Shown piece after piece: positions 15,957 to 44,180 of a stretch of DNA of 44,718 nucleotides. A program made the position numbers and the translations under genes. Numbering within the stretch: position 1 is the first letter of the stretch; every line of letters begins with the position of its first letter. Source of the DNA: Pseudomonadota bacterium (GTDB taxonomy: Bacteria; Pseudomonadota; Gammaproteobacteria; Burkholderiales; Burkholderiaceae_C). The stretch spans positions 1 to 44,718 of the forward strand of contig JAIUOM010000021.1 in NCBI GenBank assembly GCA_020161215.1, read 5' to 3'. Below the pieces are notes generated by a model that was given only the letters and a program-made list of their open reading frames with translations, ran no database searches and was not told the DNA's origin.

Positions 15957-15981
15957 TGTCGAGTGCAGCTAACCGTGTCAG
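15957..15981 (-). repeat. Left terminal inverted repeat of the Tn7-like element
   Basis: The 25-bp end begins TGTCGAGTGCAGC and contains, read inward on the minus strand, the transposase-site core CTGACACGGTTA (15970-15981). It matches the right end at 23 of 25 positions (the differences are T/A at base 8 and G/C at base 19). Confidence 0.92.
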
Positions 15982-16069
15982 TTCGGTTGCTTGATCTCGT
16001 AAGGCTTTGATTTCTATATTGGGTCTTACCGTGCCTGCAGTCTGGGAGCGTGATTCGACAAAGGCGTGG

Positions 16070-16145
16070 CTGACAGGGTTACGAGCCTACTTGCCAGCAA
16101 CTGACGGGGCTACGCTTCCTGGGCAAATCCCTACTGACATGGTTA
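16070..16145 (+). repeat. Left-end cluster of three transposase-site repeats
   Basis: CTGACAGGGTTA (16070-16081), CTGACGGGGCTA (16101-16112) and CTGACATGGTTA (16134-16145) are direct copies spaced 31 and 33 bases. They are probable TnsB binding sites. All three point opposite to the site embedded in the left terminal repeat, and the last overlaps the stop codon of the XRE-type gene. Confidence 0.8.
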
Positions 16146-16430
16146 TCTAACCGCCCGCTTCGACCTGCCGCGACCTGTCCTTGACAACTTTGCGATCCGA
16201 GCTTCCCACTGGCCGACCAGTTCTCCGAGGCTGATACCTAGGCCTGCGCAGTAGTCCCGTAGTTCAACAAGGTCCAACCGCCGGATCCCCAACTCCACGT
16301 TGCTGACGAACGTCTGGGTGCGCCCGAGCCGCTTCGCCAGTGCGGTCTGCACCATGCCGCCGCCTTCGCGGAGGTCCCGCAGCAGAGCGGCGAGTTCCAG
16401 GTTCTCGATCCGGTACAGGCTCTTGGCCAC
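16143..16430 (-). CDS. Small XRE-family helix-turn-helix regulator
   Basis: From GTG 16430 the product is 95 residues. It contains a Cro/C1-type HTH (LAKRLGRTQTFVSNVELGIR, about 31-50) followed by DLVELRDYCAGLGIS, typical XRE packing. A basic tail (GRGRSKRAVR) ends the protein. The start is uncertain: longer in-frame extensions exist, but their sequence is unlike the family and overlaps the divergent lipoprotein gene. Such small XRE proteins often repress transposition or cargo genes. Its stop codon overlaps the innermost left-end transposase site, so TnsB binding and this gene are physically linked. Target genes are not known. Confidence 0.75.
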   Translation of the reverse strand: MAKSLYRIENLELAALLRDLREGGGMVQTALAKRLGRTQTFVSNVELGIRRLDLVELRDYCAGLGISLGELVGQWEARIAKLSRTGRGRSKRAVR

Positions 16431-16490
16431 AGGCACGAGGCCTCGCGAAACAGGTGGTGCACACGCTAGGGCCCGGACCCGGATACGCAG

Positions 16491-16520
16491 ATACCGTGTT
16501 TTCGAATATTTGGGTATGCT
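16491..16520. promoter_or_regulatory. Putative operator/promoter between the XRE-type and lipoprotein genes
   Basis: Inverted half-sites ATACC (16491-16495) and GGTAT (16513-16517) flank TTTTCGAATATTTG, whose core TTCGAA is palindromic. TATGCT (16515-16520) could be a -10 for the lipoprotein gene 32 bases downstream. An upstream XRE-type gene makes autoregulation plausible; this is inference from position and symmetry. Confidence 0.35.
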
Positions 16521-16551
16521 CCCGGTCACCCACTGCAGGCTGGAGGCCGGA

Positions 16552-17358: not shown

Positions 17359-17417
17359 CGATATCGTGTCGTGTCCACGAGATCCTGGTAACTCCAATCT
17401 CCACTTATCGGAATGAC

Positions 17418-17446: not shown

Positions 17447-17540
17447 AGTGCCAACGGAGTGGCCGCCTTCTTGGAAGCGTGGCTTGGCCTGGATGCGGGG
17501 GCATCTGATGGCTCACAAGGACGTCAATCTGGGGGACAAC

Positions 17541-20500
17541 ATGACTCACGTCGAGATCCGGACGTCGCGGACGGCCGCGGCGTTGTTTCTGCTTGTTTTG
17601 GCGATCCTGCTCGCTCCCGTTGGGATCATCTTCTCCCAAGTATGGGCACAGATGACGGCCTACTCCGGGCCGGGCGTTCTGGTGATCTCTCCTGATCCCA
17701 TTTCCGACGCCGTCGCCGCGACGCCGGCGGAATTCCGCGTCGACGAATCCGGCGCGGCCACCTACTCGGTTCCGATTTTCGTGGTTCCAGGCACCGCCGG
17801 TGTAGCGCCGCAGCTGTCGCTGAACTACTCCAGCCAGGGTGGTTACGGCCCGATGGGCCGCGGCTGGTCCGTAAGCGGCCTGTCGGCGATCTCACGCTGC
17901 CGCGCCACACGCGAGGCGGGCGACTTCCTTGCAGCAGCAACGCCCGACGGAAATCCGAGACCCATCAACTTCAGCGCATCCGATAGGTTCTGCTTGGACG
18001 GTCAGCGGCTCGTGCCCTCGGTAGCGACTTGTCCGAACGTGGGCGGCATGTCCGCATCCCCCCTGGCCACAGAGATCGAGTCCTTTCAGCGCGTGTGCGC
18101 CTACACGCCCGCGGGTAGCGAAAACGGCCCCGCCTTCTTCACCGCCGAACGAAAGGATGGCTCGATCAGTTGGTACGGCGATCGTGATCAAAATGCTTCC
18201 TCAAATCGACCTGACGGCTACTTCGAATCCACCGCGCCCGGCCAGACGGGCAAGGCGCTGTCTTGGGCGCAGACCCGATTCCAGGACTCTACGGGCAACT
18301 ACATCGACTACCTGTACCTGGAAAATTCGGGAGGTGCGGTTGGCGAACACCTGATCAGCGAGGTGCGCTACACCGGCAAGGTGGCCCTCGCGGGACAAAG
18401 TGCACCGGCCTCGGGACCCTTCGCGCGCGTGGTATTCAACTATTCGGCACGGGCAACTCAGTTATGGGGAAAGGGCTATGTTTCTGGCGGCCTGCTGACG
18501 CAAAGCCGCAAGCTCGACAGCATCACCTCCTGCGCGACGATCGCGTGCGAGACCTTTTCTCAAGTCCGCCACTACGTACTTGGATATCTGAACAGCCCGT
18601 CTGGTAGCGGGCTTGAGACACTGGTCAGCCTGAGGGAATGTCGAGACAACCGCACGGATGCCGTGTGCGCATCGGCGACGACATTCGAGTGGAGTACCGC
18701 GCCTCACAATTTTGCCAGCAGCGAGTCGCCCAGTAGCTCCACGCTCACGACGGATCCGTATCACGATTTCAAACTGGCTGACATCAATGGGGATGGCCGG
18801 CAGGATCTAGCGCTGTTGTACACGGCGGGTAGCGGTTGTGTCGGCGGGTCCTGGGTCGTCAGCATGCTGGGCACGTTCGATGGCGCAGGACGGCCAACGT
18901 TCGCCAGCACTATCTACAACTGCGTTCCGACGAACATCGTCAATCGGGGCTCAGGGGCATGGCATCTGTTTGACTACAATGGCGACGGATTGGATGACCT
19001 GTTCGTCTCAGGTGCGAACGGCGCCGGATGGCGCATGCACCCATCCAATGGCACGCACTTCGACATGACCACAAACCTGATATCCGGTCTGTCGATTCCT
19101 TCGCGAACTGACAGGCTTGATCAGGTTCAGTTGGCGGACCTCAATGGCGATGGTCTTACTGACATCGTCTATCCGACCGGAGCGGGGCTGAAAGCGCGGC
19201 TCATGGTCCGGCAAAGCGGCGGGGCCTTTGCCTGGGACGCCGCAGAAAGAAGCGTCGTGATTGACGAGGCCTCATTGCCTCCGATGCCCATGGGGTGTGG
19301 CGACCAGTGGAATCCGGACGTGCGGAACTGCCAACGCGTCATATCGGGTATGCCGACGACCAAGGCAGGCTTCACGCAACTCGCAGATCTCAATGGCGAC
19401 GCTGCGTCGGACCTGCTTCTACGAATCACCACAAGCGCAGATTATCGTCAGCCAGGAGTGCCTGGTTGCACCAACGAACCTCTTGGTGCCCCGTCATATC
19501 CTGGCGGTGCCGACGGCGTGGTGGAGGGCTACTGGAATGACGACTCGTGGGTGACCATTGGCGCGCCATTCGACCCGTGCTGGACGACCGTTACGAATGA
19601 TGCGCTCCATGCTCTGGTGGTGGCGGGATTGACATCCACGTCGGTCAATCTCTCCAACCATGGGACATTCAGTGTCGGAAACCCTGAGAGCGTCGTGTTC
19701 GGGGACGTGAATGGTGATGGCCTCACCGACGCGTTCCTCCGCAATACGGCGAGCAGTGACTGGTATTCGGTCGTGAATACGGGAACGGGCTTCGTAGCGG
19801 GGACAAGCCTCCCGTTGAGCAGCTATCGCGACCAAGTCCGTTTTGCGGACGTCAATGGTGATGGCAGAACGGACATGCTCCATGTGGTGAATGGGGCCAA
19901 CAAGGTCTACTACGTCCGATATGCATTGCCGAGTGGCGGATATGGACCATCAACCCCGTTGCCTGGCGGGAATGCGAGGATCTGCCAAGGCAGCGGCTGC
20001 AACGAACAGGCGCGCGTTCCGATCTTCGCGGATTTTGATGGCGACGGAAATCTGGACTTCCTGTCGTTCAATGCTTCATCGAGCAATCTAGGCCTGTATT
20101 TCTCGCGGGGCAGTCAACGCTTCGTGCCGAGGGACACCATCGTCAGCTTCACCAATGGCCTTGGATCGAGGACTGAGCTGGCGTATGCCACGCTGACCAA
20201 TACGGCGGCCTACCGGCGCTCGAATACTTCCCGAAACGGTACGAACTGGGGCCGTGGCGCTCCCGTATCTGACTTGCTGGCCCCGATGTACGTCGTCGTT
20301 CGCGCCTCTAGCAGTTCGCCGCAGGCAGGCAATCCAAACGCCATGGCCTCCGTCCACTACCGCTATGCCAACGGCCGCGTTCAGGCCGGCGGCCGCGGGT
20401 TCTTGGGCTTTGGCACGATCGAGACGATCGACCCGAATCAAAGCGGCGGCTACGTTGTCACCAAGACAACGTATTCCCAAAACTTCCCGTTCATCGGCAT

Positions 20501-23500
20501 GCCAATGCAGACGACCAAGCGGGTGGTGAACGGCACGTACAGTGCGCTGCCATGCGTGACTAGTACGATCAATAACACTTGCTTTGGCGTGCCAGGTCAG
20601 GCGCATACCGACCTCGGTGGCAGTTGGTTCTCTGACAATTGGCAATCTTGGGAAGTGGCGCCGGCCAGCTTGGCGTCGCTGGAGCCCCTGCACGTGCGCA
20701 CGATCGGGTCTGAGGAGCGCCTGCGCGATCCGTTCACCGGAGAGCAGACCAGCCGTGTTGTGACCGCTTTCAATTACGGCAGCCACGGCAATGTCATACA
20801 AACGGCAGTCGATACCTATACCCGATCGGAGACTACGCCGAGTTCGACAGTCATTACTGTCAACAGCTATGCCGACGATGTCGGCAAGTGGCGTCTGGGT
20901 CGCCTGACCTCAAGTACCGTGACCCACCGCCGCCCGAGCCAGGCGGATGTCGTACGCACCACCGGCTTCAGCTACGAGATGAGCGGCGCTACGACCGGAC
21001 TGCTGACCGAGGAGCGCGTGCAACCAGGCGGCGCTGCAAATCTGGCTTCCACCAAGACGTACCAACTTGACGACTACGGCAACCGCCTGCAGACCACCAC
21101 CTGTGCGGGACCGGCGACGCCATGCTCGACTAGCGGCTTCCAGTTCCGCCCCGTCACGGCCACTCAGGTCAGGCGCTACGCACGGGTGACCTACGATGAG
21201 CGAGGTCGGTTCCCGACGGGCACCTGGGAACCGTTCTGGACCGAGACCGGAGGGGAGGAGCGCCAGACCAGCCGCATCTACGAGCGCAATGTCTTCGGCG
21301 ATCCGACAAGCGTCTACGACGCCAACAACGTCCACAGCTACGCCGTGGAAGGCCTGCTAGGTCGCCCGTACTACGCTTGGCGACAGACCGTTCAGTTCAC
21401 GTCGCCGGGTCAGGGTGGCCTGCGCACGCTGACGACCTACCGCACCTGCGCCCAGGTGGACTGCCCCACCGGCGCAGCCTTCCGCCAGCAGGTCGAGACA
21501 ACGGCGGCGCCGCGCCAGTGGACGTATTTCGATGTACTGGGCCGTCCGGTGATGCAGGCGGCGGAGACATTCAACGCCGGTGTCACTGGCGAGGACATGG
21601 CGGCCACTTGTACCGATTACACCGTTGCCGGGCAGCCTCGTCGAGTTTCGAATCCATTCTTCCTGACGGGCACCGCGGGTCTTAGTGGTCCTGCCAGCAT
21701 CGCTAATGTTTGCACCGCCGCGGCCCGGAAGTGGACGACCACCACTTACGACGCGCTGGGTCGTCCGACTCAGGTGGTTGGACCGGACAGTAGTCAGGCG
21801 AGCGTGGCCTACGTCGGCCTCGCCACGACGAAGACGGATCCACGCAACAATCAGACCATAGAGCGCCGCAATGGCCTGGGCGAATTGGTGTCAGTGACCG
21901 ATGCGGCCGGCCTGACGATGATCTACAACTACTTTGCAGACGGTACCGTTGGCAGCGTCATGCGCGACGCGGGTGCCGGCACGATCGCCAACTACTTCTC
22001 CTACGACGTGCTGGGCCGGAAAGCACAGCAGCAGGATCCCGACACGGGGCTGACCACGTTTGAGTACAACGCGCTGGGCGAGCTGACCGCACAGGTCGAC
22101 GCGGCGGGCAACCGCATCGAACACGCCCTCGACGCGCGCGGCCGGATCTGGCGCACGGTGGTCAAGGACGCGAACGGCCTGACCGAGACCGAATCGACCT
22201 TCACGTTCGACCTAGGCACCGGCGCGCTAGGCCAGCGGACCGCGGAGACCATCACCGGCACCTATGTCGGCTGGTCGGGCCAGCCGGGCACAGCCCACGA
22301 TTACCGACGCGACTATAACTTCGATGTCATGGGCCGACCCACGAGCAGCGTGGTCCAGGTCGATGGGCAAGTCTTCGGCGACGGCGTAGCCTACGACATC
22401 CTGGGGCGCCCTTGGCAGGCTATGGATGCTTCGGGAAAAGGGGTTAAGACCGAGTTCGGTCCGCGCGGGCACGCGCGAGCGCTGTGCTCCATATCCGTCT
22501 TCAATGAGGATCCGATCTGTCCCGGCGCGGACACGGTCCAGCGCACCCTTCAGGTGGATGCCTGGGGCAACGTCGCACGAGAACGGCGCGGCGACAGTGC
22601 GGCCCTGGAGGTGGCGCGCACGGTGTGGGCCGATACCGGACGAATCGCGTCGATCTGTGCGGGCAACAGCAGCTGCAACCTGGTCAACGAACAATACGGA
22701 TGGGACGCGGCGGGCAACTTGACCTCGCACCTCAAGGAACAGCGCTATCTGGAGGGCTTCACGTACGACAGCCTGAACCGACTGTCGACGGGCGCCCTGC
22801 TGATGCGCGACGGCGTGACGGTGAACCAAGAGACGGTTTCACTGGGATACGACGGTTTGGGAAATATCTGCAGCCGGGGCAACAGCGAGTATACGTATGG
22901 GGGTGCGGCTGGCTGTCTCCGCTCCGGTTCGGGTGGGTCGCATGCAGTCAAACAATTGACTTTGGGCGACAACACAACCTTCTATACCTATGACCAGCGT
23001 GGGAACCAGATCCACAGGGAAGCAAGAGGAACCGAGCGGGATCGCACGATCCATTACTCGTTCGACGACAAGGCTCACGAGATCCTGATGGGATCTGGCC
23101 AGCGGGTTAGGTTCTGGTACGGGCCGGATGGCCAACGCTACAAGCGCGAGGAGGGGGGCAAGGTCACCTACTACTTCGGTAGCGTGGAGGTCGTTGTCCT
23201 GGGCGGTGTTACTACGTTCAAGCGCTACGTTGGCGGAATTGCCTTGCAGGCGGTCGTCAATGGCGTAGTGCAGAGTACGAAGTATCTGTTCCACGACCAC
23301 TTAGGTAGTTTGGTGCGGATTACCAATGCTGACGGCAGCGTGGCCGAGCGACTGGACTATCAAGCTTTTGGAGCACGTCGCAACCCAAGTGATCCCCACG
23401 ATGCATTCGCGCTCGCCTCCGTTTACACACCACGCGGTTACACAGGCCATGAATACGTCGATGACACTGACGTGATTCATATGAACGGGCGAATCTACGA

Positions 23501-24617
23501 CAGCGAACTGGGGCGGTTCCTGCAGGCCGATCCGCTGATCCAGGCGCCGAACAACACACAGAGTTGGAACGCGTACACCTACGTGTTCAACAACCCGTTC
23601 GCGTATACAGATCCGACGGGGATGTTCTCGTTCCGGCAACTCTTTGCCGTGGTATTTGCCGCGGTTTACGCATATTTCACATGGGACCTGACCGGCGCTA
23701 CTGCCATCTATGCCGCCATGATTGGGGGTGCGATTACAGGTGCCATTGCTACTGGGACATGGAAAGGGGCCATCATGGGCGCCTTTACCGGCGCCGTGAC
23801 GGCAGGCATCGGATGGGCGGCCAACACCTACGAATGGGGCAACATGGCTCGCATTGCTGCGCAGGCAACGTCGGGCGGCATCATGGAATCGCTGCAAGGC
23901 GGGAACTTTGGCAACGGATTCTTTGCTGCGGGGCTAACAGCAGCGGTCATGCCGAACCTGAAGGGCATTCGGAGTGATGTCGCACGGGCAGCCACTGGCG
24001 CGTTGATTGGCGGCACAATCAGTAAAGCAACTGGCGGAAAGTTCGCAAACGGGGCGATCAGTGGCGCCATCCAGGCGGCGATGGCGGGGCGGTCGTCTGA
24101 AGGCGAAGACCGAGCTGGAGATCGCCAAAGAGGCGCTAAATGGTCAGCTGGAAAGGTAAAGGATCTGCTTAGTGAGTCTGAAGTGGGCAGTGCATTCCTG
24201 GCTGAACTGCAGGCAAGTGAGGTTGAACTCATGAGTTTCGAGGGCGCAAGCGATACTTTTCCAAAGCCAGGTGGCAAGGCAGTCGTTAGAGATCTCAGCG
24301 AAACACTTCAAGGCAACTACAAGGATGGCGTAATTCGACTCAATGCGGGTCTGACGAACAGACAAGCGGCGCTATCGCTGTATCACGAGTACCAACATCA
24401 CTTAGGGTTCAATGAAGTTGATGCTCGAATTCGAACAGAGCAGTTCGCGATAGATGCTGGCTTCAGTGCATCTTCGCCCGGTTATCGAACTTCGGCCGGC
24501 ACGGTAAACGTACAATTCATTCGCAGTGAGCTACAGCCTGGGGGCTCCTTATCGAGCCACTACAATGCTGGGCCTAGAATCAGGAAATACTGGGGAGAGA
24601 GAAGTGTGCCGTTCTAA
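17541..24617 (+). CDS. Exported SpvB/RHS polymorphic toxin with C-terminal HExxH domain
   Basis: Starting at ATG 17541 (GGGGG at 17531-17535) the protein has 2358 residues. A signal peptide ending VWAQ (residues 1-37) is followed by an SpvB-like domain (YSVPIFVVPGTAGVAPQLSL), seven or so VCBS/FG-GAP calcium motifs (DINGDGRQDL, DLNGDGLTDI, DVNGDGRTDM) over about 410-850, a long YD/RHS repeat region, and the RHS core end YDSELGRFLQADP...DPTG near 2005-2028. After it come a Gly-zipper hydrophobic stretch (2030-2185) and a variable C-terminus with YHEYQHHLGFNEVDAR, an HExxH zinc-peptidase signature (H2282, E2283, H2286). RHS shells encapsulate toxins used against competitors. The next gene is the probable immunity protein. 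Confidence 0.9.
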   Translation: MTHVEIRTSRTAAALFLLVLAILLAPVGIIFSQVWAQMTAYSGPGVLVISPDPISDAVAATPAEFRVDESGAATYSVPIFVVPGTAGVAPQLSLNYSSQGGYGPMGRGWSVSGLSAISRCRATREAGDFLAAATPDGNPRPINFSASDRFCLDGQRLVPSVATCPNVGGMSASPLATEIESFQRVCAYTPAGSENGPAFFTAERKDGSISWYGDRDQNASSNRPDGYFESTAPGQTGKALSWAQTRFQDSTGNYIDYLYLENSGGAVGEHLISEVRYTGKVALAGQSAPASGPFARVVFNYSARATQLWGKGYVSGGLLTQSRKLDSITSCATIACETFSQVRHYVLGYLNSPSGSGLETLVSLRECRDNRTDAVCASATTFEWSTAPHNFASSESPSSSTLTTDPYHDFKLADINGDGRQDLALLYTAGSGCVGGSWVVSMLGTFDGAGRPTFASTIYNCVPTNIVNRGSGAWHLFDYNGDGLDDLFVSGANGAGWRMHPSNGTHFDMTTNLISGLSIPSRTDRLDQVQLADLNGDGLTDIVYPTGAGLKARLMVRQSGGAFAWDAAERSVVIDEASLPPMPMGCGDQWNPDVRNCQRVISGMPTTKAGFTQLADLNGDAASDLLLRITTSADYRQPGVPGCTNEPLGAPSYPGGADGVVEGYWNDDSWVTIGAPFDPCWTTVTNDALHALVVAGLTSTSVNLSNHGTFSVGNPESVVFGDVNGDGLTDAFLRNTASSDWYSVVNTGTGFVAGTSLPLSSYRDQVRFADVNGDGRTDMLHVVNGANKVYYVRYALPSGGYGPSTPLPGGNARICQGSGCNEQARVPIFADFDGDGNLDFLSFNASSSNLGLYFSRGSQRFVPRDTIVSFTNGLGSRTELAYATLTNTAAYRRSNTSRNGTNWGRGAPVSDLLAPMYVVVRASSSSPQAGNPNAMASVHYRYANGRVQAGGRGFLGFGTIETIDPNQSGGYVVTKTTYSQNFPFIGMPMQTTKRVVNGTYSALPCVTSTINNTCFGVPGQAHTDLGGSWFSDNWQSWEVAPASLASLEPLHVRTIGSEERLRDPFTGEQTSRVVTAFNYGSHGNVIQTAVDTYTRSETTPSSTVITVNSYADDVGKWRLGRLTSSTVTHRRPSQADVVRTTGFSYEMSGATTGLLTEERVQPGGAANLASTKTYQLDDYGNRLQTTTCAGPATPCSTSGFQFRPVTATQVRRYARVTYDERGRFPTGTWEPFWTETGGEERQTSRIYERNVFGDPTSVYDANNVHSYAVEGLLGRPYYAWRQTVQFTSPGQGGLRTLTTYRTCAQVDCPTGAAFRQQVETTAAPRQWTYFDVLGRPVMQAAETFNAGVTGEDMAATCTDYTVAGQPRRVSNPFFLTGTAGLSGPASIANVCTAAARKWTTTTYDALGRPTQVVGPDSSQASVAYVGLATTKTDPRNNQTIERRNGLGELVSVTDAAGLTMIYNYFADGTVGSVMRDAGAGTIANYFSYDVLGRKAQQQDPDTGLTTFEYNALGELTAQVDAAGNRIEHALDARGRIWRTVVKDANGLTETESTFTFDLGTGALGQRTAETITGTYVGWSGQPGTAHDYRRDYNFDVMGRPTSSVVQVDGQVFGDGVAYDILGRPWQAMDASGKGVKTEFGPRGHARALCSISVFNEDPICPGADTVQRTLQVDAWGNVARERRGDSAALEVARTVWADTGRIASICAGNSSCNLVNEQYGWDAAGNLTSHLKEQRYLEGFTYDSLNRLSTGALLMRDGVTVNQETVSLGYDGLGNICSRGNSEYTYGGAAGCLRSGSGGSHAVKQLTLGDNTTFYTYDQRGNQIHREARGTERDRTIHYSFDDKAHEILMGSGQRVRFWYGPDGQRYKREEGGKVTYYFGSVEVVVLGGVTTFKRYVGGIALQAVVNGVVQSTKYLFHDHLGSLVRITNADGSVAERLDYQAFGARRNPSDPHDAFALASVYTPRGYTGHEYVDDTDVIHMNGRIYDSELGRFLQADPLIQAPNNTQSWNAYTYVFNNPFAYTDPTGMFSFRQLFAVVFAAVYAYFTWDLTGATAIYAAMIGGAITGAIATGTWKGAIMGAFTGAVTAGIGWAANTYEWGNMARIAAQATSGGIMESLQGGNFGNGFFAAGLTAAVMPNLKGIRSDVARAATGALIGGTISKATGGKFANGAISGAIQAAMAGRSSEGEDRAGDRQRGAKWSAGKVKDLLSESEVGSAFLAELQASEVELMSFEGASDTFPKPGGKAVVRDLSETLQGNYKDGVIRLNAGLTNRQAALSLYHEYQHHLGFNEVDARIRTEQFAIDAGFSASSPGYRTSAGTVNVQFIRSELQPGGSLSSHYNAGPRIRKYWGERSVPF

Positions 24618-25038: not shown

Positions 25039-25048
25039 CCAGATACCA

Positions 25049-25149: not shown

Positions 25150-25222
25150 TGTTGGCGCGCATCCAGAACTGACCCACTTTCGACAGTGATGCGCGGGTAA
25201 AACTGACCCACCTGAAGCCCAC
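25150..25222 (+). repeat. Left inverted repeat of the IS21 element
   Basis: 73 bp starting TGTTGGCGCGC and ending CTGAAGCCCAC. It matches the right end at about 68 of 73 positions and carries two AACTGACCCAC copies; a third and fourth related motif (ACTGACCC at about 25240 and TTTGACCCACCC at about 25265) follow inside. Confidence 0.88.
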
Positions 25223-25296
25223 TGTTGGCGCGCACTTAAAACTGACCCGGCGTGCGCGTTGAACTTTGACCCACCCGGTGGACGGGGTTGAGGGTA

Positions 25297-27586: not shown

Positions 27587-27620
27587 TCCTGAAATCCCCC
27601 GAGCAAAAGATGCTCAGGAT

Positions 27621-33145: not shown

Positions 33146-33154
33146 GGTGTGTCC

Positions 33155-35082: not shown

Positions 35083-37148
35083 TCCGCCACCTCATCCAAG
35101 AGAGATGCGATTTCCTTCTCAACCGCTTTCAATTCGGCATCAATCTCGTGCAGGCCGCGCGGTGGCACGTATTTGTAAAAGTAGCGGTTGAAGTTAATCT
35201 CATAGCCGACCTTGCCCACCTTGCCGTCGCGATCGTCGGTGTACTCGACATCCACCCAAGCGTCAGGGACATGCGGAAGTACCTCTGCGCTCATATAGTC
35301 GTGGATCGATTGTTCCAGTGGCATGGTCTCGTAGTCTTCTAGCTCCTTGTCTGGCCACGGCTCCCCGTCTTCGTCGACAATGATTGGAGCGTCATTATCG
35401 CGCACGCCAAAAGCAGCTTCCAATGCGACATACAGAGGATTTCCAACCTTGCCAACTTTGGCCTTCTTGGCGGCTTCAACGAGGGTGTCCAGCCATTCGT
35501 AGGGGTGCGTGGCGTCATCTTGCTTGACGAGGAAGGCCAACCAGGCCTTCTGGTCCTTGGCGTCCAGCTTGGTGAAAGGTTTGCTAGCCTTAAATGCTTC
35601 GATGGCCTCTTTGGTAACGCGGATGACGAGCCGCAGCGGGCGCTGGACCTTGATCCGCCGATAGCCGAAATCGCGATAGTCCACAATCCGCACGTTCTCG
35701 CTCGGCGTGAAGTCAGCATAGAGACGGGCGATGTCCTGAATTTGACTGTCGCTGACATAGCGGCGCTTGTTACCCTCAGCCTTGCGCATGGGGCTGTGCA
35801 TGTCGGTCGCATTGATCAACTGGATCTTGCCGCGGCGATCTTGCGGCTTGTTGTTGGTCAGCAGCCAAATGTAAGTGCCGATGCCCGTGCGGAAGAAGAT
35901 GTCGTTGGGTAGGGCGACGATAGTCTCTACGTAGTCCTTTTCCAGCAGCCATCGGCGGATCTGCGACTCGCTGTGGCCATGACCGCCTGCGGTTCCGGTG
36001 AAAAGTGGTGAGCCCGACAGGATGATCGCCGCGCGGCCACCGCCCTTGTTGGGGTGTTCAAGTTTGGAAATCAGGTGCTGGATGAAGAGCATGGAGCCGT
36101 CGGTAACCTTCGGGGTGCCGGCACCGAAGCGGCCCTCGAACCCCTTCTCCTTAGCTTCGCGCTCGACGAACGCCTGGTCCTTCTCCCACTTCTTGCCGAA
36201 AGGAGGATTGGAGAGGCAGTAGTGAAAGCGCTGGCCCGCAAAGGCGTCTTGGGACAGCGTAGACTTCGGGCCGGCGATGTTGGTCGACAGGTCGCGTGCG
36301 GGCTCGGTTTCCAGACGGCGCAGCAGCATGTTGGCGAGCGCCACCGCGTGGGTCTCCGGCTCCAGTTCTTGCCCGAAAGGGAGTAGTACAGGCGGAGCCT
36401 TGCCTCTGGCAGCGAAGCCATCGATGTGGTTCATGGCGTCGATGAGGAAGCCGCCGGTGCCGCAGGTGGGGTCGTAGAGCGTACGGATCAGGCCCGGGTT
36501 GTTGCGGAACAGCGCATCGTCCGGATCTAGCAGCAGAGTAGTGGCCAGGTGGACCACGTCGCGCGGCGTCATGAAGTCTTCGGCCGCCTCGTTGACCTCA
36601 GAGCCGAACCTACGGATCAGGTGCTCGTAGATGTTGGACATCACTCGGTCGGGCACGACATCCGGGTGCAGGTCGGTGTTGGCGAAGTTCTGGCAGATCT
36701 TGAACAGGATGTCGGCACGGGCGAGGCGGGCGATCGTGTCGACGAAATTGAATTGATCGAAGATGACGCGGGCATTGTCCGAGAAGCCCGCCACGTAGGC
36801 CTCCAGGTTCGACTTGGTCTTGGTGGCGCCCAGGGTGGCCAGCGAATACTGCGAGGTGTTGTAGAAGGGCAGGCCTGCGGTCTGACGCAGGATCATGTCG
36901 GTATCCAGGCCCTTGGTCTTGAACTTGGTATGCGCATCACGGACGTTGTCGCGGGTGGGTTCAAGCACGCATTCCAAGCGACGCAGCAGCGTGAACGGCA
37001 GGATGATCTTGCCGAAGTCGGTGTGTCTGAAGTCGCCCCAGAGATCCTCGGCGTTCTTCCAGATGAAGTTGGCCAGGACTGTGTCGTTGGCCTTGGGGGC
37101 TTCGGCGACAGTCTGAGGGGCTGGTTTGGCTTGCTTGGTCTTGGTCAT
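35079..37148 (-). CDS. hsdM: Type I DNA methyltransferase subunit M
   Basis: HsdM methylates adenine in the target chosen by HsdS and protects host DNA. From ATG 37148 the product has 689 residues. The N-terminal helical region (FIWKNAEDLWGDFRHTDFGK) precedes the SAM-binding motif I DPTCGTGGF (about 228) and catalytic motif IV NPPFGKKW (about 314). The C-terminal extension carries WPDKELEDYETMPL, as in N6-adenine type I M subunits. In-frame sequence upstream of 37148 is not protein-like. The stop overlaps hsdS by four bases. A small basic protein gene is the next gene upstream, 153 bases away. Confidence 0.95.
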   Translation of the reverse strand: MTKTKQAKPAPQTVAEAPKANDTVLANFIWKNAEDLWGDFRHTDFGKIILPFTLLRRLECVLEPTRDNVRDAHTKFKTKGLDTDMILRQTAGLPFYNTSQYSLATLGATKTKSNLEAYVAGFSDNARVIFDQFNFVDTIARLARADILFKICQNFANTDLHPDVVPDRVMSNIYEHLIRRFGSEVNEAAEDFMTPRDVVHLATTLLLDPDDALFRNNPGLIRTLYDPTCGTGGFLIDAMNHIDGFAARGKAPPVLLPFGQELEPETHAVALANMLLRRLETEPARDLSTNIAGPKSTLSQDAFAGQRFHYCLSNPPFGKKWEKDQAFVEREAKEKGFEGRFGAGTPKVTDGSMLFIQHLISKLEHPNKGGGRAAIILSGSPLFTGTAGGHGHSESQIRRWLLEKDYVETIVALPNDIFFRTGIGTYIWLLTNNKPQDRRGKIQLINATDMHSPMRKAEGNKRRYVSDSQIQDIARLYADFTPSENVRIVDYRDFGYRRIKVQRPLRLVIRVTKEAIEAFKASKPFTKLDAKDQKAWLAFLVKQDDATHPYEWLDTLVEAAKKAKVGKVGNPLYVALEAAFGVRDNDAPIIVDEDGEPWPDKELEDYETMPLEQSIHDYMSAEVLPHVPDAWVDVEYTDDRDGKVGKVGYEINFNRYFYKYVPPRGLHEIDAELKAVEKEIASLLDEVAE

Positions 37149-37301
37149 GGAGCCTGCGTCAGTGTCGAAAAGTGGATGGCCGCGCCCGCCAACTAGTGGG
37201 CAGGGTGGTGGATTGCTTGATGGATGTCCCCAGCACATCCCAACAGGGCAGCGTCCACAGGGCTGAGATCGCAGCGCACGATGCTGGATATGGAAAGGCT
37301 C

Positions 37302-37875: not shown

Positions 37876-39090
37876 CTAACTCTTCTTTACCGGAATGATG
37901 TCGTATGGAAGATACTGGCCGAAATGAAATCTGGTTTGCTCGTCAGCCACCGGCCTCCTTCTCCGCTTGAAAAGGGATTCCGGCATGGCGATCGTGGGAT
38001 GTGCATTCCATGGGATTCCTTCCTCCACGAAAGTCGTCGGATCTTCGTCCATCAAGAACGTGATGGACAGGTCGTGGTGCAGGGATATGAGTTCCCGGTT
38101 GTCGATGAGCCACTGCCCAAGTTCTGCAGGGACGTAGTGATGATCAGGTGGGACAGGGTCTTCGGACTCGCCCTGCTCTTCGAGAGTCAGCCGGCAGGCG
38201 CGTGCCCAGATGGATCTGCGCCATCTCCGTTCCGCGCGCCCTTTCGTGTATGTCTTCGGATCTGCACGGCTTCGCTTTCCAGGCTTCCTTGGGGTGGATT
38301 TGTATTCCTCGTACAGGGCGTCTTCGGCAAGTTTGATGTATCGGGGGGGCGGTTCGAATCCGGGATTCCAACTTAGCATCCGGGTAGCGAGAAGATATTT
38401 CCATGTGTCCGACTGCTCACCCGAGTAATGATGATCCTCGGCAAACTGCTCGGCGAGCATGCACAACCTGCGTCTTAGGCGCCCTGCAAGATCCTCATCA
38501 GCGAGATCCTGTGCCTCACGGTACAGCAGAAGCAGGAGATGGAGGCTGTCGAGGGTTGCCTGTTGGGTGACCTCAGCGAGCCTGGGCGGGATCGCCTCCG
38601 GATACTCTTCGCCGTATCCGAGCTCGAAGCGGGAATCCGAGATCAAGCCGAGTGCCATGGCATTGGATTGGTCCACCGAGTTAAGCCGCGCAAGGCCATG
38701 CTGTTCTAGCAGCGCCTCGATTTCACGGTTGCCACTGGCATCCGTGGAGGAACGACGTGTCAAGGATTTCCAGAAGGCATGGTCGTAGATCGCGAGTGTG
38801 GGTTCGTAGCCGTGTCGGCTCGCCACGTGTTTGACCAAGGACGTATTTCCCTTCGCGACGATCCCGTTCGGGTCGTAACCGTCGTCTTTGACGCTTTCGA
38901 AGCGTCGCCCCTGCTGCAGGCCCTTTGCCAAGCGGTGACTGGGATGGTCGATCTGAGTCGGTTCGTCCGCGCCCGCCCTGGCCATGACCAAGCTGAGCCA
39001 ATGCCAGGCGCGAGTTCGATAGATCGCCTCTCCGAAGGTGTTCGGCGGTCGGCCAGCTCCTTTAGAGCGTAATTCGATTTTCTGTGGCAT
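37876..39090 (-). CDS. Uncharacterised 404-residue transposon cargo protein
   Basis: The protein starts MPQKIELRSKGAGRPPNTFG and was not recognised. It is soluble and mostly helical, with an N-terminal HTH-like stretch (AIYRTRAWHWLSLVMARAGA), an acidic middle, and a C-terminal part rich in Arg/Lys (RKPGKRSRADPKTYTKGRAERRWRRS, about 270-295) that could bind nucleic acid. There is no signal peptide or obvious catalytic motif. It sits next to the transposition genes but points away from them, a usual place for late cargo. No known defence family is evident. Confidence 0.55.
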   Translation of the reverse strand: MPQKIELRSKGAGRPPNTFGEAIYRTRAWHWLSLVMARAGADEPTQIDHPSHRLAKGLQQGRRFESVKDDGYDPNGIVAKGNTSLVKHVASRHGYEPTLAIYDHAFWKSLTRRSSTDASGNREIEALLEQHGLARLNSVDQSNAMALGLISDSRFELGYGEEYPEAIPPRLAEVTQQATLDSLHLLLLLYREAQDLADEDLAGRLRRRLCMLAEQFAEDHHYSGEQSDTWKYLLATRMLSWNPGFEPPPRYIKLAEDALYEEYKSTPRKPGKRSRADPKTYTKGRAERRWRRSIWARACRLTLEEQGESEDPVPPDHHYVPAELGQWLIDNRELISLHHDLSITFLMDEDPTTFVEEGIPWNAHPTIAMPESLFKRRRRPVADEQTRFHFGQYLPYDIIPVKKS

Positions 39091-39154: not shown

Positions 39155-39454
39155 ATGAACAGAATTCCTGAGGATCGCCCTTCAGGCGACCGAAAACCCG
39201 CTCAGCAGGATTTTTTGGAGCGTTATGGCGAATTGATGCCAGGATCGGCGATCCGGACGTTCCTGCACTTCACCAGCGACCGGTCGTTCCGGCGTGCGGC
39301 GGCCAAGCAGGCGCTGCCTGTCGCCGTCTTTCGCGTGCCGGGGCGGCGGGGATGGTTCGCCCGTACCCGGGATGTCTCCGCTTGGCTGGATGCGGCCGCA
39401 AATGGAGGCTTGCCTCATGTCTCCCCGATGCAGCCACGGGAGGACGAGCCATGA
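39155..39454 (+). CDS. Small putative DNA-binding protein upstream of tnsA
   Basis: A 99-residue protein of which residues about 20-80 read as a winged helix or MerR/AlpA-like fold: ERYGELMPGSAIRTFLHF, then a basic helix FRRAAAKQALPVAVF and the wing RVPGRRGWFARTRDVSAWLD. The layout resembles excisionase, AlpA or pyocin-activator-type proteins, by eye only. No strong ribosome binding site precedes the start, so the start is provisional. It is co-directional with the tns genes, 255 bases upstream, with a hairpin terminator in between, suggesting a separate regulator of transposition rather than part of that operon. Confidence 0.5.
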   Translation: MNRIPEDRPSGDRKPAQQDFLERYGELMPGSAIRTFLHFTSDRSFRRAAAKQALPVAVFRVPGRRGWFARTRDVSAWLDAAANGGLPHVSPMQPREDEP

Positions 39455-39501
39455 CGTAGCCAGACATAGTTCTAAAACGAACCGAGGCTAGAAACGACAA
39501 A

Positions 39502-39709: not shown

Positions 39710-40228
39710 ATGAGTTGCTTCGCAGAGGCGCAAAGCCTCCGCGGCCGGCTGGCCGCACCCGAAAAACCGCTCGATATCGAGATTTTGCGCGTACAGGAGG
39801 GCGTGCGAGTCATCCCGATCTCGCGTTCGCGACACGTCCGCGGATGGCATCCCGTTCGGCCTGATCATCCGAGCATCGCCTTCGAGTCGAAGGTCGAGGC
39901 GAGGTTGATCACATGGATGGCACGTTTGCCTGAACTCGTTGCGATCCGATCGCAACCGGTCACTGTGGACTACAGGTTCGTTGGTACGCGTGGCCGTTAT
40001 ACGCCCGACTTCTTCGTGGAACTGTCGGAGATTCCTGACGAGCTGAAACAGCTTGGCTTTGCCAGGGAGACTTATGTCGAAATCAAACCTCTCAAGCGTG
40101 CATTGAGCGCTGAATCAAAACTCTCCAGAAAGTTCGCCGCGGTTCGCAAGGCATGCAAATGTCCGGTTGTCCTCCTGACCGACTGCGATCTCTCTCAGAC
40201 TTCCAGGGAGGTGCGCCATGCTGCTTGA
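39710..40228 (+). CDS. tnsA: Tn7-like transposase endonuclease TnsA
   Basis: TnsA cuts the 5' ends of the element so that it moves by cut-and-paste rather than by replication. The 172-residue protein carries the restriction-like nuclease: E59 or E63 in FESKVEARLITW, D100 in GRYTPDFFVE and the ExK pair at 124-126 (YVEIKP). The C-terminal domain is short compared with Tn7 TnsA (273 aa). The start follows GAGGAACTCCC. The last 11 bases (ATGCTGCTTGA) are also the start of tnsB, so the two are coupled. Its presence separates this element from Tn402/Tn5053-type transposons, which lack TnsA. Confidence 0.88.
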   Translation: MSCFAEAQSLRGRLAAPEKPLDIEILRVQEGVRVIPISRSRHVRGWHPVRPDHPSIAFESKVEARLITWMARLPELVAIRSQPVTVDYRFVGTRGRYTPDFFVELSEIPDELKQLGFARETYVEIKPLKRALSAESKLSRKFAAVRKACKCPVVLLTDCDLSQTSREVRHAA

Positions 40229-41516
40229 ACTGAGGCCGGGATGCGGTGTCGTGTATGAGGGCTTGGTCGGGAAAGTCGAAGAGTTCGTCGGGCACGATAG
40301 CGCTGTAGTTCGTCTGGATGTCGATAACAGCATTATCGAGGTGCTTCGCTCAGCATTGATTCCTTTGGCGCCCGCCAGCAAAGCGTTGGAGAAGACCAGT
40401 CTTGCCAAGATCGACGATGCGATCTGGGAAAGAGCAAATGCGCGCGCCAACGCTGTCCGAGAGGTAGTCGCGATGGCGGTGGGTAGAACGGAAGCTGCAC
40501 GTAAGTTCGCACACCAACTGAACATCAGTGAACGACAGTTCTGGAGGCTTGCTGCCGATTTCGAAAGGCACGGCTTGGTCAAAGCCATGATCGCCCGTGT
40601 CGGAGGAAGGCCTGCTGGAACGACGGTGCTCGATCCCGAGGTGGAAAAGATCATCGCGTTCCGCTTCGAGAACGATTATCTGCAGAAGGAGCGACCGACG
40701 AAGAGGGCGATCTACGAGTTGGTCGCCGCAGATTGTCGTGTAGCTGGGTTAAATCCCCCTGCCGAGGCCACTGTGCGGAGGCGAATCGACGCGCTGATGG
40801 GAAGGGAAGCCACGCTGCGGCGGGAAGGGTCGAAGAAGACCAAGTTCATTTTCGATGCCATGCCCGGCCATGTAGAAGCGGAAGCGCCGCTGGATCGAGT
40901 GGAAATCGATCACACGCCCTTAGATGTTTTTGCGCGTTCGGATGATCCGGCATGCAAGTTCATCGGACGGCCCTGGCTTACCGTAGCAATCGATGTGTGT
41001 ACACGGTGCGTACTCGGTATCCACATTGGGTTCGAGCCACCGAGTTCTCTTTCAGTGGCGTTGTGCCTGACGCACGCCGCTCTTCCGAAGCTTCCTGCCT
41101 CCGAGTTCGGTGTTCCGCTGGATTGGCCCATGCATGGGTTGCCGAAGGAGATCGTCGTCGACAATGGCAAGGATTTCCAGTCGATTGCTTTCGTCCGGGG
41201 CTGCGACCACTATCGCATCAAGCTCAGCTATCGGCCGGTGGGATCCCCGCACTACGGAGGCACGATCGAGCGTCTGATCGGGACGATGGTGGGGCAATGC
41301 CATCTGTTGCCGGGGACGACCAAGAACTCGGTGAAGGCCAAGGGCGACTACGATTCACAGAAGCATGCCACGCTGACCCTGAGCGAAGTTCGCCGGTGGT
41401 TCGTCGAGCAATTGCTTGGCCGCTATCACCTTCGCCCACACCGGATGCTGCGCATTCCACCGCTGGTGGCTTGGCAGCAGGCGATGAATGCCGAGGCGGT
41501 GTGCGATGCAGCCTGA
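40218..41516 (+). CDS. tnsB: TnsB catalytic subunit (DDE integrase-fold), lacking its C-terminal domain
   Basis: A 432-residue DDE transposase: an HTH region (AARKFAHQLNISERQFWRLA, about 93-112), and the integrase core with D231 (VEIDHTPLDVF), D315 (IVVDNGKDFQ) and E351 (GGTIERLIG), a D-35-E spacing. It joins the 3' ends to target DNA. The protein stops right after RIPPLVAWQQAM, where family members continue into the Mu-C-type beta-barrel; that domain is encoded by the next gene in another frame. It starts with ATGCTGCTTGA shared with tnsA, and ends in ATGCAGCCTGA shared with the next gene. GGAGG lies at 40207-40211. Confidence 0.9.
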   Translation: MLLELRPGCGVVYEGLVGKVEEFVGHDSAVVRLDVDNSIIEVLRSALIPLAPASKALEKTSLAKIDDAIWERANARANAVREVVAMAVGRTEAARKFAHQLNISERQFWRLAADFERHGLVKAMIARVGGRPAGTTVLDPEVEKIIAFRFENDYLQKERPTKRAIYELVAADCRVAGLNPPAEATVRRRIDALMGREATLRREGSKKTKFIFDAMPGHVEAEAPLDRVEIDHTPLDVFARSDDPACKFIGRPWLTVAIDVCTRCVLGIHIGFEPPSSLSVALCLTHAALPKLPASEFGVPLDWPMHGLPKEIVVDNGKDFQSIAFVRGCDHYRIKLSYRPVGSPHYGGTIERLIGTMVGQCHLLPGTTKNSVKAKGDYDSQKHATLTLSEVRRWFVEQLLGRYHLRPHRMLRIPPLVAWQQAMNAEAVCDAA

Positions 41517-42054
41517 CGATGCTCAGGAGTTCATGGTTGCATTTCTTCCTGGAGAGGATCGCGTACTGACGCGGACGGGTGTGGAGATCCATTGCCTGCA
41601 GTACTGGGGCGATGAGCTAGAACCTTGGGTAGGGCAGAGGCTCAAGGTGCTGGTGCACTACGACCCGCGCGACATTACCTATGTGTACGTGCGCACCCCG
41701 GGTGGTGTTCTCGTCAAGGCACCGGTGACCACTCCAGGGATATCAGCGATCTCACTCGCCGAATGGTCGGCGCGCCGTCAGCACGAGATTTCGGTCAGCC
41801 GTGATCCTGATCTGGTGAAGCAGGCGGATGAAAGCCTGCTCAGGAACAACGCCACGGTCAAACAGGCCAAGGCAACGCGCAAGCAGAAGCGAAGGAAGGC
41901 AACGGCGGCGGCGGGAGACAAGTACCGCTCCGAGTCTTGCCCGAGCCCTCCTGTTGAACAAAGCGGCGTCGACGAGATTCCGGTCAACGACGTGCCCGAC
42001 AACGATTTTGATCTTCAACCCTTTGCCATCGAGGATTTCGATTATGAATTTTGA
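41506..42054 (+). CDS. Separate C-terminal half of TnsB (Mu-C-like beta-barrel and TnsC-binding tail)
   Basis: A 182-residue protein beginning MQPDDAQEFMVAFLPGED. It continues the TnsB reading with VEIHCLQYWGDELEPWVGQR and VLVHYDPRDITYVYVRTP (about 25-65), the Mu transposase C-terminal barrel that normally follows the DDE core in one chain. A basic patch (KQAKATRKQKRRKAT, about 118-132) and an acidic tail ending EDFDYEF follow; tails of TnsB and MuA contact the AAA+ partner, so this tail may bind TnsC. The gene overlaps tnsB and tnsC by exactly 11 bases each. The ATG inside the upstream stop region argues for reinitiation and a true split gene rather than sequencing error. Confidence 0.85.
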   Translation: MQPDDAQEFMVAFLPGEDRVLTRTGVEIHCLQYWGDELEPWVGQRLKVLVHYDPRDITYVYVRTPGGVLVKAPVTTPGISAISLAEWSARRQHEISVSRDPDLVKQADESLLRNNATVKQAKATRKQKRRKATAAAGDKYRSESCPSPPVEQSGVDEIPVNDVPDNDFDLQPFAIEDFDYEF

Positions 42055-42994
42055 TACGAACAGCCAGATTCCGGCATCGTCCGACAGTGCTTCCGATTCT
42101 CTCCAGCAGGCGCAGCCTGAAGGCCGGTTGCATCCAATTGCGGAACGCGCTTTGGAGGCGTGCGATTCCGACCGGACGAAAATGATCATTCAGGATCACA
42201 TGATCCACTACCCGAGCATGAAGCAGGTGATGTCGGAGGCAGACTGGATGGTGCACGAGCCTCGTCAGGTGCGCGCGAGAGGGCTGATCGTCTGTTCGGG
42301 GCGTGGCAATGGTAAGACTAGCCTGGCTGATCTCATTCACCGCCGTTATTCGGCTTACCACGACCCGGACTTGCACAGTGCTGTGCGCGTGTCCATCAGC
42401 GGTGTTCGGGATCCTCGAGCCCTGTATGGGCGAATCCTCGAGGAATTGGGTAGTCCGGCAAGGATCTCGCATCGCCTGAGTGACCGTGAGTTGCTGGTGC
42501 AGCGGCTGCTGCTCGATGTGGATTGCCGCTTGCTGATTCTGGACGAGGTTCAGGACGTGTTGTTGGGTAGTGAACGCGAACAGCAGCGGGCATTGGAGGG
42601 GATAAAATTGTTGATGAACGAGGTACGACTCCCTGTTCTTGCGTTCGGCACGGAGAGTGCCGGGAAGGCCTTCATCGCGGATCCCCACCTGCAGGCGCGG
42701 TTTGTCCAGATCAGCTTGCCGGCCTGGAAGGCCGACAACACGCTGGCGAACTTCCTTGCGGCTTACGAACGAGTTCTTCCGTTGAAGAAGCCGTCCAATC
42801 TGGCTGCGCCGGACAACCTGAAGTACCTGTCCAAGGCAAGCGAAGGCATCTTGGGGAGGATCGTCGAACGTGTGAAGAACGCGGCCTTGGCCGCAATCGC
42901 GGATGGCACCGAGCAAATCACGCTGGATGGGCTCAAGCAGGCGATTACTCGGCCGCCAGTCTGCGGACTCCTGCCCGGCAATTCGGCGCAGTAG
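42044..42994 (+). CDS. tnsC: Tn7-like AAA+ target-selection ATPase TnsC (TniB-like)
   Basis: A 316-residue AAA+ protein. Walker A is CSGRGNGKTSL (K91) and Walker B RLLILDEVQDVLL at about 161-173, followed by a sensor region LPVLAFGTESAGKAF. TnsC filaments link the transposase to TniQ and license insertion. The size is closer to TniB than to Tn7 TnsC (555 aa). ATG 42044 is chosen because ATGAATTTTGA overlaps the preceding stop by 11 bases, the same pattern as the two upstream junctions. An upstream in-frame reading is not protein-like. tniQ starts two bases after its stop. Confidence 0.9.
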   Translation: MNFDTNSQIPASSDSASDSLQQAQPEGRLHPIAERALEACDSDRTKMIIQDHMIHYPSMKQVMSEADWMVHEPRQVRARGLIVCSGRGNGKTSLADLIHRRYSAYHDPDLHSAVRVSISGVRDPRALYGRILEELGSPARISHRLSDRELLVQRLLLDVDCRLLILDEVQDVLLGSEREQQRALEGIKLLMNEVRLPVLAFGTESAGKAFIADPHLQARFVQISLPAWKADNTLANFLAAYERVLPLKKPSNLAAPDNLKYLSKASEGILGRIVERVKNAALAAIADGTEQITLDGLKQAITRPPVCGLLPGNSAQ

Positions 42995-42996
42995 CC

Positions 42997-44058
42997 ATGG
43001 CCGAGAAGGTACTTTGCATTCGCGTCGACTCACCCTATCCGGGTGAGTCGATGTCGTCCTTCCTGTCCCGAGCAGCGCAGTTCTATGCGATGCCGGTTCC
43101 CAATTTGCTGAAGTCCTTGCTGGGGGATTCCAAACAGTCCCTCTATGAACGTAAGGAAGTTGATTTCGAAACTGGGCCGGTACTGGAAAGTCGATTGTCG
43201 GAGACGGTCAGGAACTGGCGATCGCCGGCGGAAGACCACAAGGGCTTTCTAGGCTGGAAGCTGGCCCAGCAAAGTCGTTCGGCTTATTGTCCGGCCTGCT
43301 TCATGCAGGATTTGGCGGAAGGACGGACGCCGTATTTCCGCAACGACTGGATCCCGGTGCTGGTGACGACTTGCTGGCGGCATAAGACGCCCCTGTTTCA
43401 CTGGGAGATGACGTACACGGGAGGCTGGCGTCGTTGGCCTCGGGAGTGGCTGTACGGGAAGGGGAACCCGGTCGATCACCTGCCAGCGTTTATGCAGCGC
43501 GATCTCGGCCAACTGGAGGGTCTGCATTCCGGCGGGGAAGCCGATACCGATGTGGGTGACGGAATCGCGGCATCTCAGGCCTTTGGGTATCTGAATCGAT
43601 TGCAGGTCCTCATGGAGAAGCCGTCTGCGGCGCCGATGCCGGAGCGGCCGGGCTTCCGATCGGATCTGGATGACTTCCGCAGCCTTGTTCGCCAATTGGT
43701 TCAGCTGGCGGCCTGGTACTGGGCCGATCATCGGGAACTGCCCGTTGCCACCGTGATCTCCGTCGAGGGGAAAGGAGGTTGGTTCGGCTCATTGCCCGAG
43801 CGGGCGGTTCCCCGGAGCTGGGAGTACCTCGATGCCGGTCTGCGCAGGGATGCTTGCATCCGGTGGCGCCGCCACTACTTGATGTTCGTGGTCAGGACAT
43901 TGCTCCGGATGGGCCGGTTCTCCAGCCTGTTCCGGTTGGAAAGTCCGGCCTTGTCCAGTCCTGACTGGCGGGAGTGGTGGTCGGGCGGGATTTGCCAGTA
44001 CCTTGGGCCGCGTCAGCGGCAATCGATGGCTCGATTCATGGACACCAAGTTGGCCTGA
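42997..44058 (+). CDS. tniQ: TniQ/TnsD-type target-site selector
   Basis: The 353-residue protein has an N-terminal PYPGESMSSFLSRAAQFYAM (the TniQ start), then a zinc-binding segment SAYCPACFMQDLAE...CWRH, with CxxC and CxxH ligands at about residues 92-131. The family picks the insertion site, either by binding a fixed att sequence (TnsD) or through other partners. Only one TniQ is present and there are no Cas genes, so a fixed chromosomal site is likely; the right end lies 122 bases past its stop and close to rpoH. The size is intermediate between TniQ (about 400) and short CAST TniQ. Confidence 0.88.
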   Translation: MAEKVLCIRVDSPYPGESMSSFLSRAAQFYAMPVPNLLKSLLGDSKQSLYERKEVDFETGPVLESRLSETVRNWRSPAEDHKGFLGWKLAQQSRSAYCPACFMQDLAEGRTPYFRNDWIPVLVTTCWRHKTPLFHWEMTYTGGWRRWPREWLYGKGNPVDHLPAFMQRDLGQLEGLHSGGEADTDVGDGIAASQAFGYLNRLQVLMEKPSAAPMPERPGFRSDLDDFRSLVRQLVQLAAWYWADHRELPVATVISVEGKGGWFGSLPERAVPRSWEYLDAGLRRDACIRWRRHYLMFVVRTLLRMGRFSSLFRLESPALSSPDWREWWSGGICQYLGPRQRQSMARFMDTKLA

Positions 44059-44114
44059 GGTTAGCTGGATCGTAAGTTGTTGATTTAGACTCTGTCTGAG
44101 CCGTAGGTCTACTA

Positions 44115-44167
44115 CTGACAGGGCTACCGGACTACTGACATGGTTTCCTGCTTTGCTGACAGGGTTA
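44115..44167 (+). repeat. Right-end cluster of transposase-site repeats
   Basis: CTGACAGGGCTA (44115-44126), CTGACATGGTTT (44135-44146) and CTGACAGGGTTA (44156-44167) repeat in the same direction at 20-21 base spacing; the last belongs to the terminal repeat. A degenerate copy CTGAGCCGTA lies at 44096-44105. The right end is therefore denser than the left, as in Tn7. Confidence 0.85.
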
Positions 44168-44180
44168 GCTGCTCTCGACA
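44156..44180 (+). repeat. Right terminal inverted repeat of the Tn7-like element
   Basis: The 25-bp end reads CTGACAGGGTTAGC and finishes in TCTCGACA. Its reverse complement begins TGTCGAGAGCAGC, matching the left end at 23 of 25 bases. Confidence 0.92.

Follow-up and report, generated by a model that had tools for sequence, protein, structure and literature searches.

A Tn7-like transposon upstream of rpoH whose TnsB is divided over two reading frames, and its relatives in Lysobacter

In the working definition given in the accessible part of PMC11406308, Tn7-like transposons are elements that carry TnsB and TnsC together with TnsA and/or TniQ. A described example, Tn6022, encodes TnsA, TnsB, TnsC and a 369-aa TniQ, with TnsF and TnsE, and the same source (PMC10293859, available in part) proposes that elements relying on an additional target selector are marked by a small TniQ that lacks a large C-terminal extension. 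Here we describe an element of 28,224 bp with the complete anatomy of a Tn7-like transposon, located at positions 15957-44180 of contig JAIUOM010000021.1 of assembly GCA_020161215.1 (44,718 nucleotides, hereafter the window; C48 in our numbering). Pfam finds TnsA, DDE transposase (with HTH_Tnp_Mu_2), TniB and TniQ domains in the element, which on its predicted proteins is a Tn7-like transposon as delimited in that part of PMC11406308: homologues of TnsB and TnsC are present, TnsB as two open reading frames (ORFs), and so are both TnsA and TniQ. An earlier sequence-only reading had already proposed the tnsA-tnsB-tnsC-tniQ set; it missed that tnsB consists of two ORFs, and also that the insertion upstream of rpoH is recurrent. 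We consider it probable that the element represents a cut-and-paste Tn7-like lineage that has a two-polypeptide TnsB and is directed by TniQ to the regulatory region of rpoH.

The nearest relatives emerged from a search of one family of genomes (f14) with TnsB1, the product of the first tnsB ORF, in which 25 of 227 genomes matched at 1e-20 and two stood out at 69 and 65%: Lysobacter chinensis TLK-CK17 (G1331, genus label g576) and L. ruishenii CGMCC 1.10136 (G1229, g563). Their proteins are identical to those of the window (L. chinensis/L. ruishenii) at 66/52% for TnsA, 68/63% for TnsB1, 65/50% for TnsB2 and 70/64% for TnsC; for TniQ the value is 58% (L. chinensis only). The TnsB1 search around the family of the assembly's bulk gave no non-self match above 49% identity, a TniQ query at 1e-10 over 369 genomes of the class had no match outside the genome of the window itself, and none in plasmids, and a TnsC query found nothing in viral contigs. 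A scan of genome contigs with two peptide patterns, which is not a census, yielded 2 loci. The L. chinensis element occupies 353173-378250, with both ends and rpoH on one contig of 611,630 bp, while in L. ruishenii the left end lies on C18 and the right end on C16, both with CCCGT.

The limits that had been set at 15957 and 44180 hold to the base. The inverted 25-bp ends agree at 23 positions, a perfect GGCGT target duplication is present on both flanks, and internal site repeats occur at each end: on the right at 12, 33 and 53 in tandem, on the left at 12 and, inverted, at 113, 144 and 177. The consensus used for this repeat scan was drawn by eye from these same ends, with a chance expectation of about 0.24 matches per 230 bp. 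When the window was scanned for ends starting with TGT (either base of the three ends allowed), both ends scored 25 and one more place 18/25; the left 25-mer had a best non-self match of 23 in the window, and six shuffles gave at best 16-17. Arrays of sites about 20 bp apart at both ends, together with the target duplication, place the element among the Tn7-like transposons. The L. chinensis element has the same layout (right 12, 33, 53; left 12, inverted 111 and 142), so the termini are conserved in a homologous element, as the sequence-only reading had asked; its right end scores 25/25, having helped to build the score, and its left end 21. Divergence is greater at the L. ruishenii ends, which score 19 and 21 of 25. 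The G+C content per kilobase is 52-69% inside the window element, the 69% block being its IS21-like part, versus 66-73% in the left flank.

In all three elements TnsB1 ends right after the catalytic part, and tnsB2 could start no later than that stop codon: the junction reads ATGCAGCCTGA in the window and TAATG in L. chinensis, and L. ruishenii has a GTG upstream of the TGA. Relative to tnsB1, the frame of tnsB2 is +1 in the window and L. ruishenii and +2 (equivalent to -1) in L. chinensis. These differing frames, each with its own start, argue for two coupled genes in preference to a mutation or a programmed frameshift, and the five tns genes of the window element (tnsA, tnsB1, tnsB2, tnsC, tniQ) each overlap or abut the next. 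TnsB1 aligns to residues 34-374 of the ShCAST TnsB and TnsB2 to residues 412-576 of the same protein; the match of TnsB1 to the TnsB of Tn6677 (type I-F) is slightly better than that to ShTnsB. The structure model of TnsB2 combines a small barrel with a long helix and a disordered tail and has a mean predicted local distance difference test score (pLDDT) of 62.5 and a predicted template modelling score (pTM) of 0.37, and all 12 of its PDB matches at E <= 0.001 come from TnsB or Tn7/CRISPR-associated transposon (CAST) transpososome entries. Among 87 loci with TnsB1-like proteins (L004-L063 and L136-L162), TnsB is a single ORF in 75, truncated in 7 and split in 5. Two of the split loci are the Lysobacter relatives; the other three (L030, L033, L062) are broken and have no TnsA, L030 and L062 lacking the N-terminal part of TnsB, and L033, from Polaromonas, showing an in-frame stop in TnsB, with neither TnsA nor TniQ in the stretch, by annotation or by search. 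In a tree of 87 sequences including that of the window, the window, L. chinensis and L. ruishenii form one clade with support 1.0, and the next branch (G1335, 0.969) has a one-ORF TnsB.

The three broken loci could be taken as an argument for regarding the break as an inactivating frameshift in a dead element. We find this improbable: the break point is common to three members that differ in frame and each offer a possible start at or before the stop, the DDE residues are invariant, and TnsB2 is conserved at 50-65%. A fused TnsB made by programmed frameshifting at the junction, which the overlap of the two ORFs in all three members might suggest, appears equally unlikely, since L. chinensis would need a +2/-1 shift and the other two a +1 shift, the junction DNA differs, and every tnsB2 has a start codon of its own there.

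The second feature that stands out is the position of these elements. In L. chinensis, rpoH comes directly after tniQ and the tns genes read towards rpoH, as they do in the window; the right end of the L. ruishenii element also lies upstream of rpoH; and a fourth genome, G1379 (g585), keeps a C-terminal remnant of tniQ and a decayed right end at the same place. From the element end to the palindrome TTAGCAGTC-N9-GACTGCTA upstream of rpoH the distance is 50, 58 and 65 bp in the three elements, and to the motif GTTCCA it is 13, 22 and 27 bp. Because the duplications, positions and left flanks differ, the three appear to be separate insertions. The palindrome appears similar to the operator of HrcA, the controlling inverted repeat of chaperone expression (CIRCE), and a putative sigma-E promoter element, GGAACTT, precedes it; in the form TTAGCAGTC-N9-GACTGCTAA (window 44231-44257; 32 of 44 rpoH loci) it is one position per arm off the canonical CIRCE. 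Our survey of rpoH, which is not a census, covered 35 inspected loci (L101-L135), one with the L. ruishenii end and one with the G1379 relic, and 169 of the 227 f14 genomes had a match. A further genome, G1195, has rpoH and a TnsB match within one 20-kb stretch but was rejected as a case of this site: the start of its tnsB lies beyond rpoH, separated from it by about 5 kb that contain other ORFs.

Two explanations would deprive this position of its meaning. One is that it is a coincidence, or a permissive spot for a weakly targeted element, as might be said of so few known elements, whose distances from the palindrome vary by up to 15 bp. With all three located elements at rpoH, under three different genus labels and with different duplications and left flanks, and with a relic at rpoH in the fourth genome, we give this little credence. 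The other is that the window is a chimeric assembly and its rpoH junction false. The assembly (250 contigs, 98.13% complete, 2.95% contaminated) does hold further copies of two genes: on C61 there is another rpoH, next to genes read from the sequence as SCO1- and ctaB-like, and on C216 another thiC. However, the order thiC-orf9380-araC-TonB-rpoH of the window recurs, free of the element, in G1333 and G1201 (where the TonB proteins are about 25% and thiC 87% identical to those of the window), the target duplication is perfect, and in L. chinensis both ends and rpoH share one contig, so that a false junction is very improbable indeed and a misbinned genuine contig fits better. The rpoH region of the window has its best score in family f14, not in the assembly's own f1; the five best f14 genomes (G1294, G1379, G1333, G1201, G1242) all carry genus label g585, and two f14 genomes from other genera show 92% along a shorter match. 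From these matches and the shared gene order, the window probably is a genuine but misbinned contig of Lysobacter type, most likely of g585, which makes G1379, with its decayed copy at rpoH, a probable congener of the source.

As for the empty site that the sequence-only reading had proposed to look for, loci corresponding to that of the window but free of the element are recognizable by gene order in G1333 and G1201; none reads across the window junction base by base, and the joined flanks of the window match relatives only from the junction rightwards. In G1178, which has the genus label of L. ruishenii, the joined L. ruishenii flanks read straight through: about 40 bases to the left are similar, and CCCGA stands where L. 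ruishenii has CCCGT. In G1312, with the genus label of L. chinensis, GGCCGAACCTGAACGG stands at the junction, the octamer occurring once in the 4,501 bases fetched; this match covers the right side and the duplication only, the flank left of the octamer not being conserved. Overall, the sequence-only reading is supported in that the Tn7-like element is complete and exactly delimited, that a relative has homologous ends and that related genomes hold empty loci; it is not supported in that TnsA, a TniB-sized TnsC and one short TniQ would form an unusual set. This reason for novelty is weak, as TnsA with a TniB-type TnsC recurs among relatives: TnsA-like and TnsC-like matches both accompany TnsB in 10 of 32 loci (L004-L035), and a TnsA-like match is present in 33 of the 87 TnsB loci, both counts being irrespective of Cas genes. 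Tn6022, too, combines TnsA, TnsB and TnsC with a short TniQ.

In the mechanism that we propose, TnsB would be made as two coupled polypeptides, TnsB1 serving end binding and catalysis and TnsB2 contributing the beta-barrel, the assembly helix and a tail contacting TnsC, and the two would form one active transposase. TnsA would cut the 5' ends, and TnsB1 with TnsB2 would join the element to a site chosen by TniQ via the TniB-type TnsC; the conserved acidic and lysine residues of TnsA suggest cut-and-paste movement. The target would be the regulatory region just upstream of rpoH, with the tns genes reading towards rpoH and the promoter region and palindrome left intact, and TniQ, the last gene product before the right end, may recognize the palindrome or the 5' part of rpoH, perhaps with a small helix-turn-helix (HTH) protein. 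The ORF of that protein is, besides the tns genes, the only other conserved gene noticed in the lineage: it occurs in both lineage relatives and in some one-ORF relatives, and since it is also present in two relatives (L170, L172) whose retrieved 20 kb contain no rpoH, its role may be that of a regulator rather than a target selector. A bolder version, in which an obligate two-subunit DDE transposase keeps catalysis and TnsC coupling apart while a single short TniQ reads the rpoH palindrome, so that the element would be drawn to a stress-control site and perhaps sense whether that site is occupied, is offered tentatively and seems to us rather doubtful.

Several observations weigh against the mechanism proposed. 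Only three elements and one relic are known in the lineage. An IS3-like element at a contig break interrupts the L. ruishenii tniQ, leaving residues 5-44 on C18 and 47-344 on C16; about 18.6 kb separate the second piece from the right end, and the two ends of the element are on different contigs. The flank repeat of L. chinensis (L163:3173 to L164:8250) is of 8 bp (GCCGAACC), not 5, which means a different stagger or a chance match of three additional bases. In G1178, other sequence sets in from about 40 bp left of the site, and matching flank is met again about 11.6 kb further on. Between insertion point and start codon no block is better conserved than the palindrome, in a profile built from 32 of 44 loci that were chosen by the palindrome itself, and the distance to it varies among the elements; Tn7 inserts at glmS in a tighter position than this 50-65 bp spread. 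Fold comparison of TnsB2 gives low TM-scores only (0.34-0.40 by query), the TniQ structure model (mean pLDDT 34) is unusable, the start codons of the tns genes are predicted ones, and the transposition activity of the window element is something that we infer.

If true, a naturally split TnsB would separate catalysis from TnsC-coupled assembly, giving a handle on how Tn7-like transpososomes are switched on as well as a two-part transposase for engineering. The region upstream of rpoH would be an attachment site of a regulatory kind, which the reviews PMC10293859, PMC8649781 and PMC11406308 do not name in the parts available: the term rpoH has zero occurrences in the main texts of the first two and is not in the examined part of Table 1 of the third. 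Literature searches combining rpoH with Tn7-like, or for split TnsB, split transposase, and Lysobacter with Tn7-like, gave nothing relevant by title or abstract; their scope excluded most subscription papers and all supplementary tables, and an earlier mention of a split TnsB or of the rpoH site is possible.

The cargo differs between the elements (Table 1). When the whole window element was compared by blastn with the relatives' stretches, only the tns region aligned, plus one match of 177 bp in L. ruishenii. The IS21-like element within the window cargo has ends of 76 nt that are 92% complementary. L. chinensis carries HATPase, Vsr, C5-methylase and NAMPT-like genes: two HATPase proteins, a Vsr endonuclease and a C5 DNA methylase form a group at L163:11573-17833 that is defence-like and unlike the window cargo, with the NAMPT-like gene further on. 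The L. ruishenii element has an ORF of 1686 aa close to its right end (L166:2725-7782), and on C18 beyond its left end a 591-aa ORF (L165:18183-19955) matches the TnsB2 barrel weakly, perhaps being a further one-ORF TnsB-type transposase nearby.

Table 1. Features of the window element and its rpoH flank (positions in the window)
Feature	Position	Strand	Remarks
Left 25-bp terminal repeat	15957..15981	+	GGCGT duplication just before (15952-15956)
Left end: terminal site and 3 internal TnsB-site-like repeats	15957..16150	+	internal repeats in opposite orientation (about 16069, 16100, 16133)
HTH_31/HTH_3 regulator (cargo)	16143..16430	-	
RHS-repeat / TcdB-mid / SpvB-like ORF (cargo)	17448..24617	+	2389 aa
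IS21-like insertion within cargo	25150..27693	-	terminal inverted repeats; istA 26075-27586, istB about 25297-26112
PDC-M18B and PDC-M18A, candidate defence pair (cargo)	28221..29803	-	PDC-M18B 28221-28769, PDC-M18A 28766-29803
Type I restriction-modification (cargo)	29885..37238	-	hsdR 29885-33145, hsdS 33565-35082, hsdM 35079-37238
404-aa ORF	37876..39090	-	no Pfam match; no homologue in searched stretches of the two lineage relatives
Small HTH/excisionase-like ORF upstream of tnsA	39155..39454	+	weak matches to PrtN and excisionase family
tnsA	39710..40228	+	172 aa; TnsA_N PF08722, 6.8e-07; E59, D100, E124, K126 invariant 3/3
tnsB1, DNA-binding and DDE catalytic part	40218..41516	+	432 aa; rve and Mu I-gamma domains; D231, D315, E351 invariant 3/3
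tnsB2, beta-barrel, helix and C-terminal tail	41506..42054 (ORF 41488-42054)	+	182 aa; Mu-transpos_C; predicted ATG overlaps tnsB1 stop (ATGCAGCCTGA)
tnsC, TniB-type AAA+	42044..42994	+	about 316 aa; predicted start overlaps tnsB2 stop
tniQ, sole TniQ found	42997..44058	+	353 aa; PF06527, 1.2e-13
Right end: 25-bp terminal repeat and 3 tandem TnsB-site-like repeats	44114..44180	-	terminal repeat 44156-44180; repeats about 20 bp apart; then GGCGT (44181-44185)
CIRCE-like palindrome TTAGCAGTC-N9-GACTGCTAG upstream of rpoH	44231..44257	+	50 bp from element end
rpoH, 5' part only (contig ends)	44269..44718	+	candidate attachment gene

Among described systems, Tn6022 (AbaR-type; PMC10293859, available in part) is alike in having TnsA, TnsB, TnsC, a short TniQ and a fixed chromosomal site. 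It differs in several respects: the proteins scanned from the window element include no TnsE domain, no further gene follows tniQ before the right end is reached, TnsB is split, and the site is upstream of rpoH instead of in comM; a TnsF in operon with tniQ, which would go with that family, was not seen, no search aimed at TnsF having been made. The Tn5053/Tn402 elements share the TniB-type TnsC, TniQ, 25-bp ends starting with TGTC and a 5-bp duplication, whereas the window element has TnsA and a chromosomal rpoH site as opposed to plasmid res sites, and no resolvase domain was found in the 19 element proteins scanned. The same 19 proteins contain no Cas domain, in keeping with the earlier statement that Cas genes are lacking, and no CRISPR array is seen in the window, where the single two-copy direct repeat lies at the IS21-like end; the element thus stands outside the CRISPR-associated transposons. 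With the type V-K CAST (ShCAST) it has in common that TnsB1 and TnsB2 each align to parts of ShTnsB; unlike it, the window element has TnsA and a two-gene TnsB, with neither Cas gene nor array. From Tn7 it differs in lying upstream of its gene and not downstream as at glmS, in its TniB-type TnsC and two-gene TnsB, and in that no TnsE is seen. It resembles Tn7 in the TnsA-TnsB-TnsC logic, the TniQ-family selector, the 5-bp target duplication, and the insertion beside a conserved gene that is left intact.

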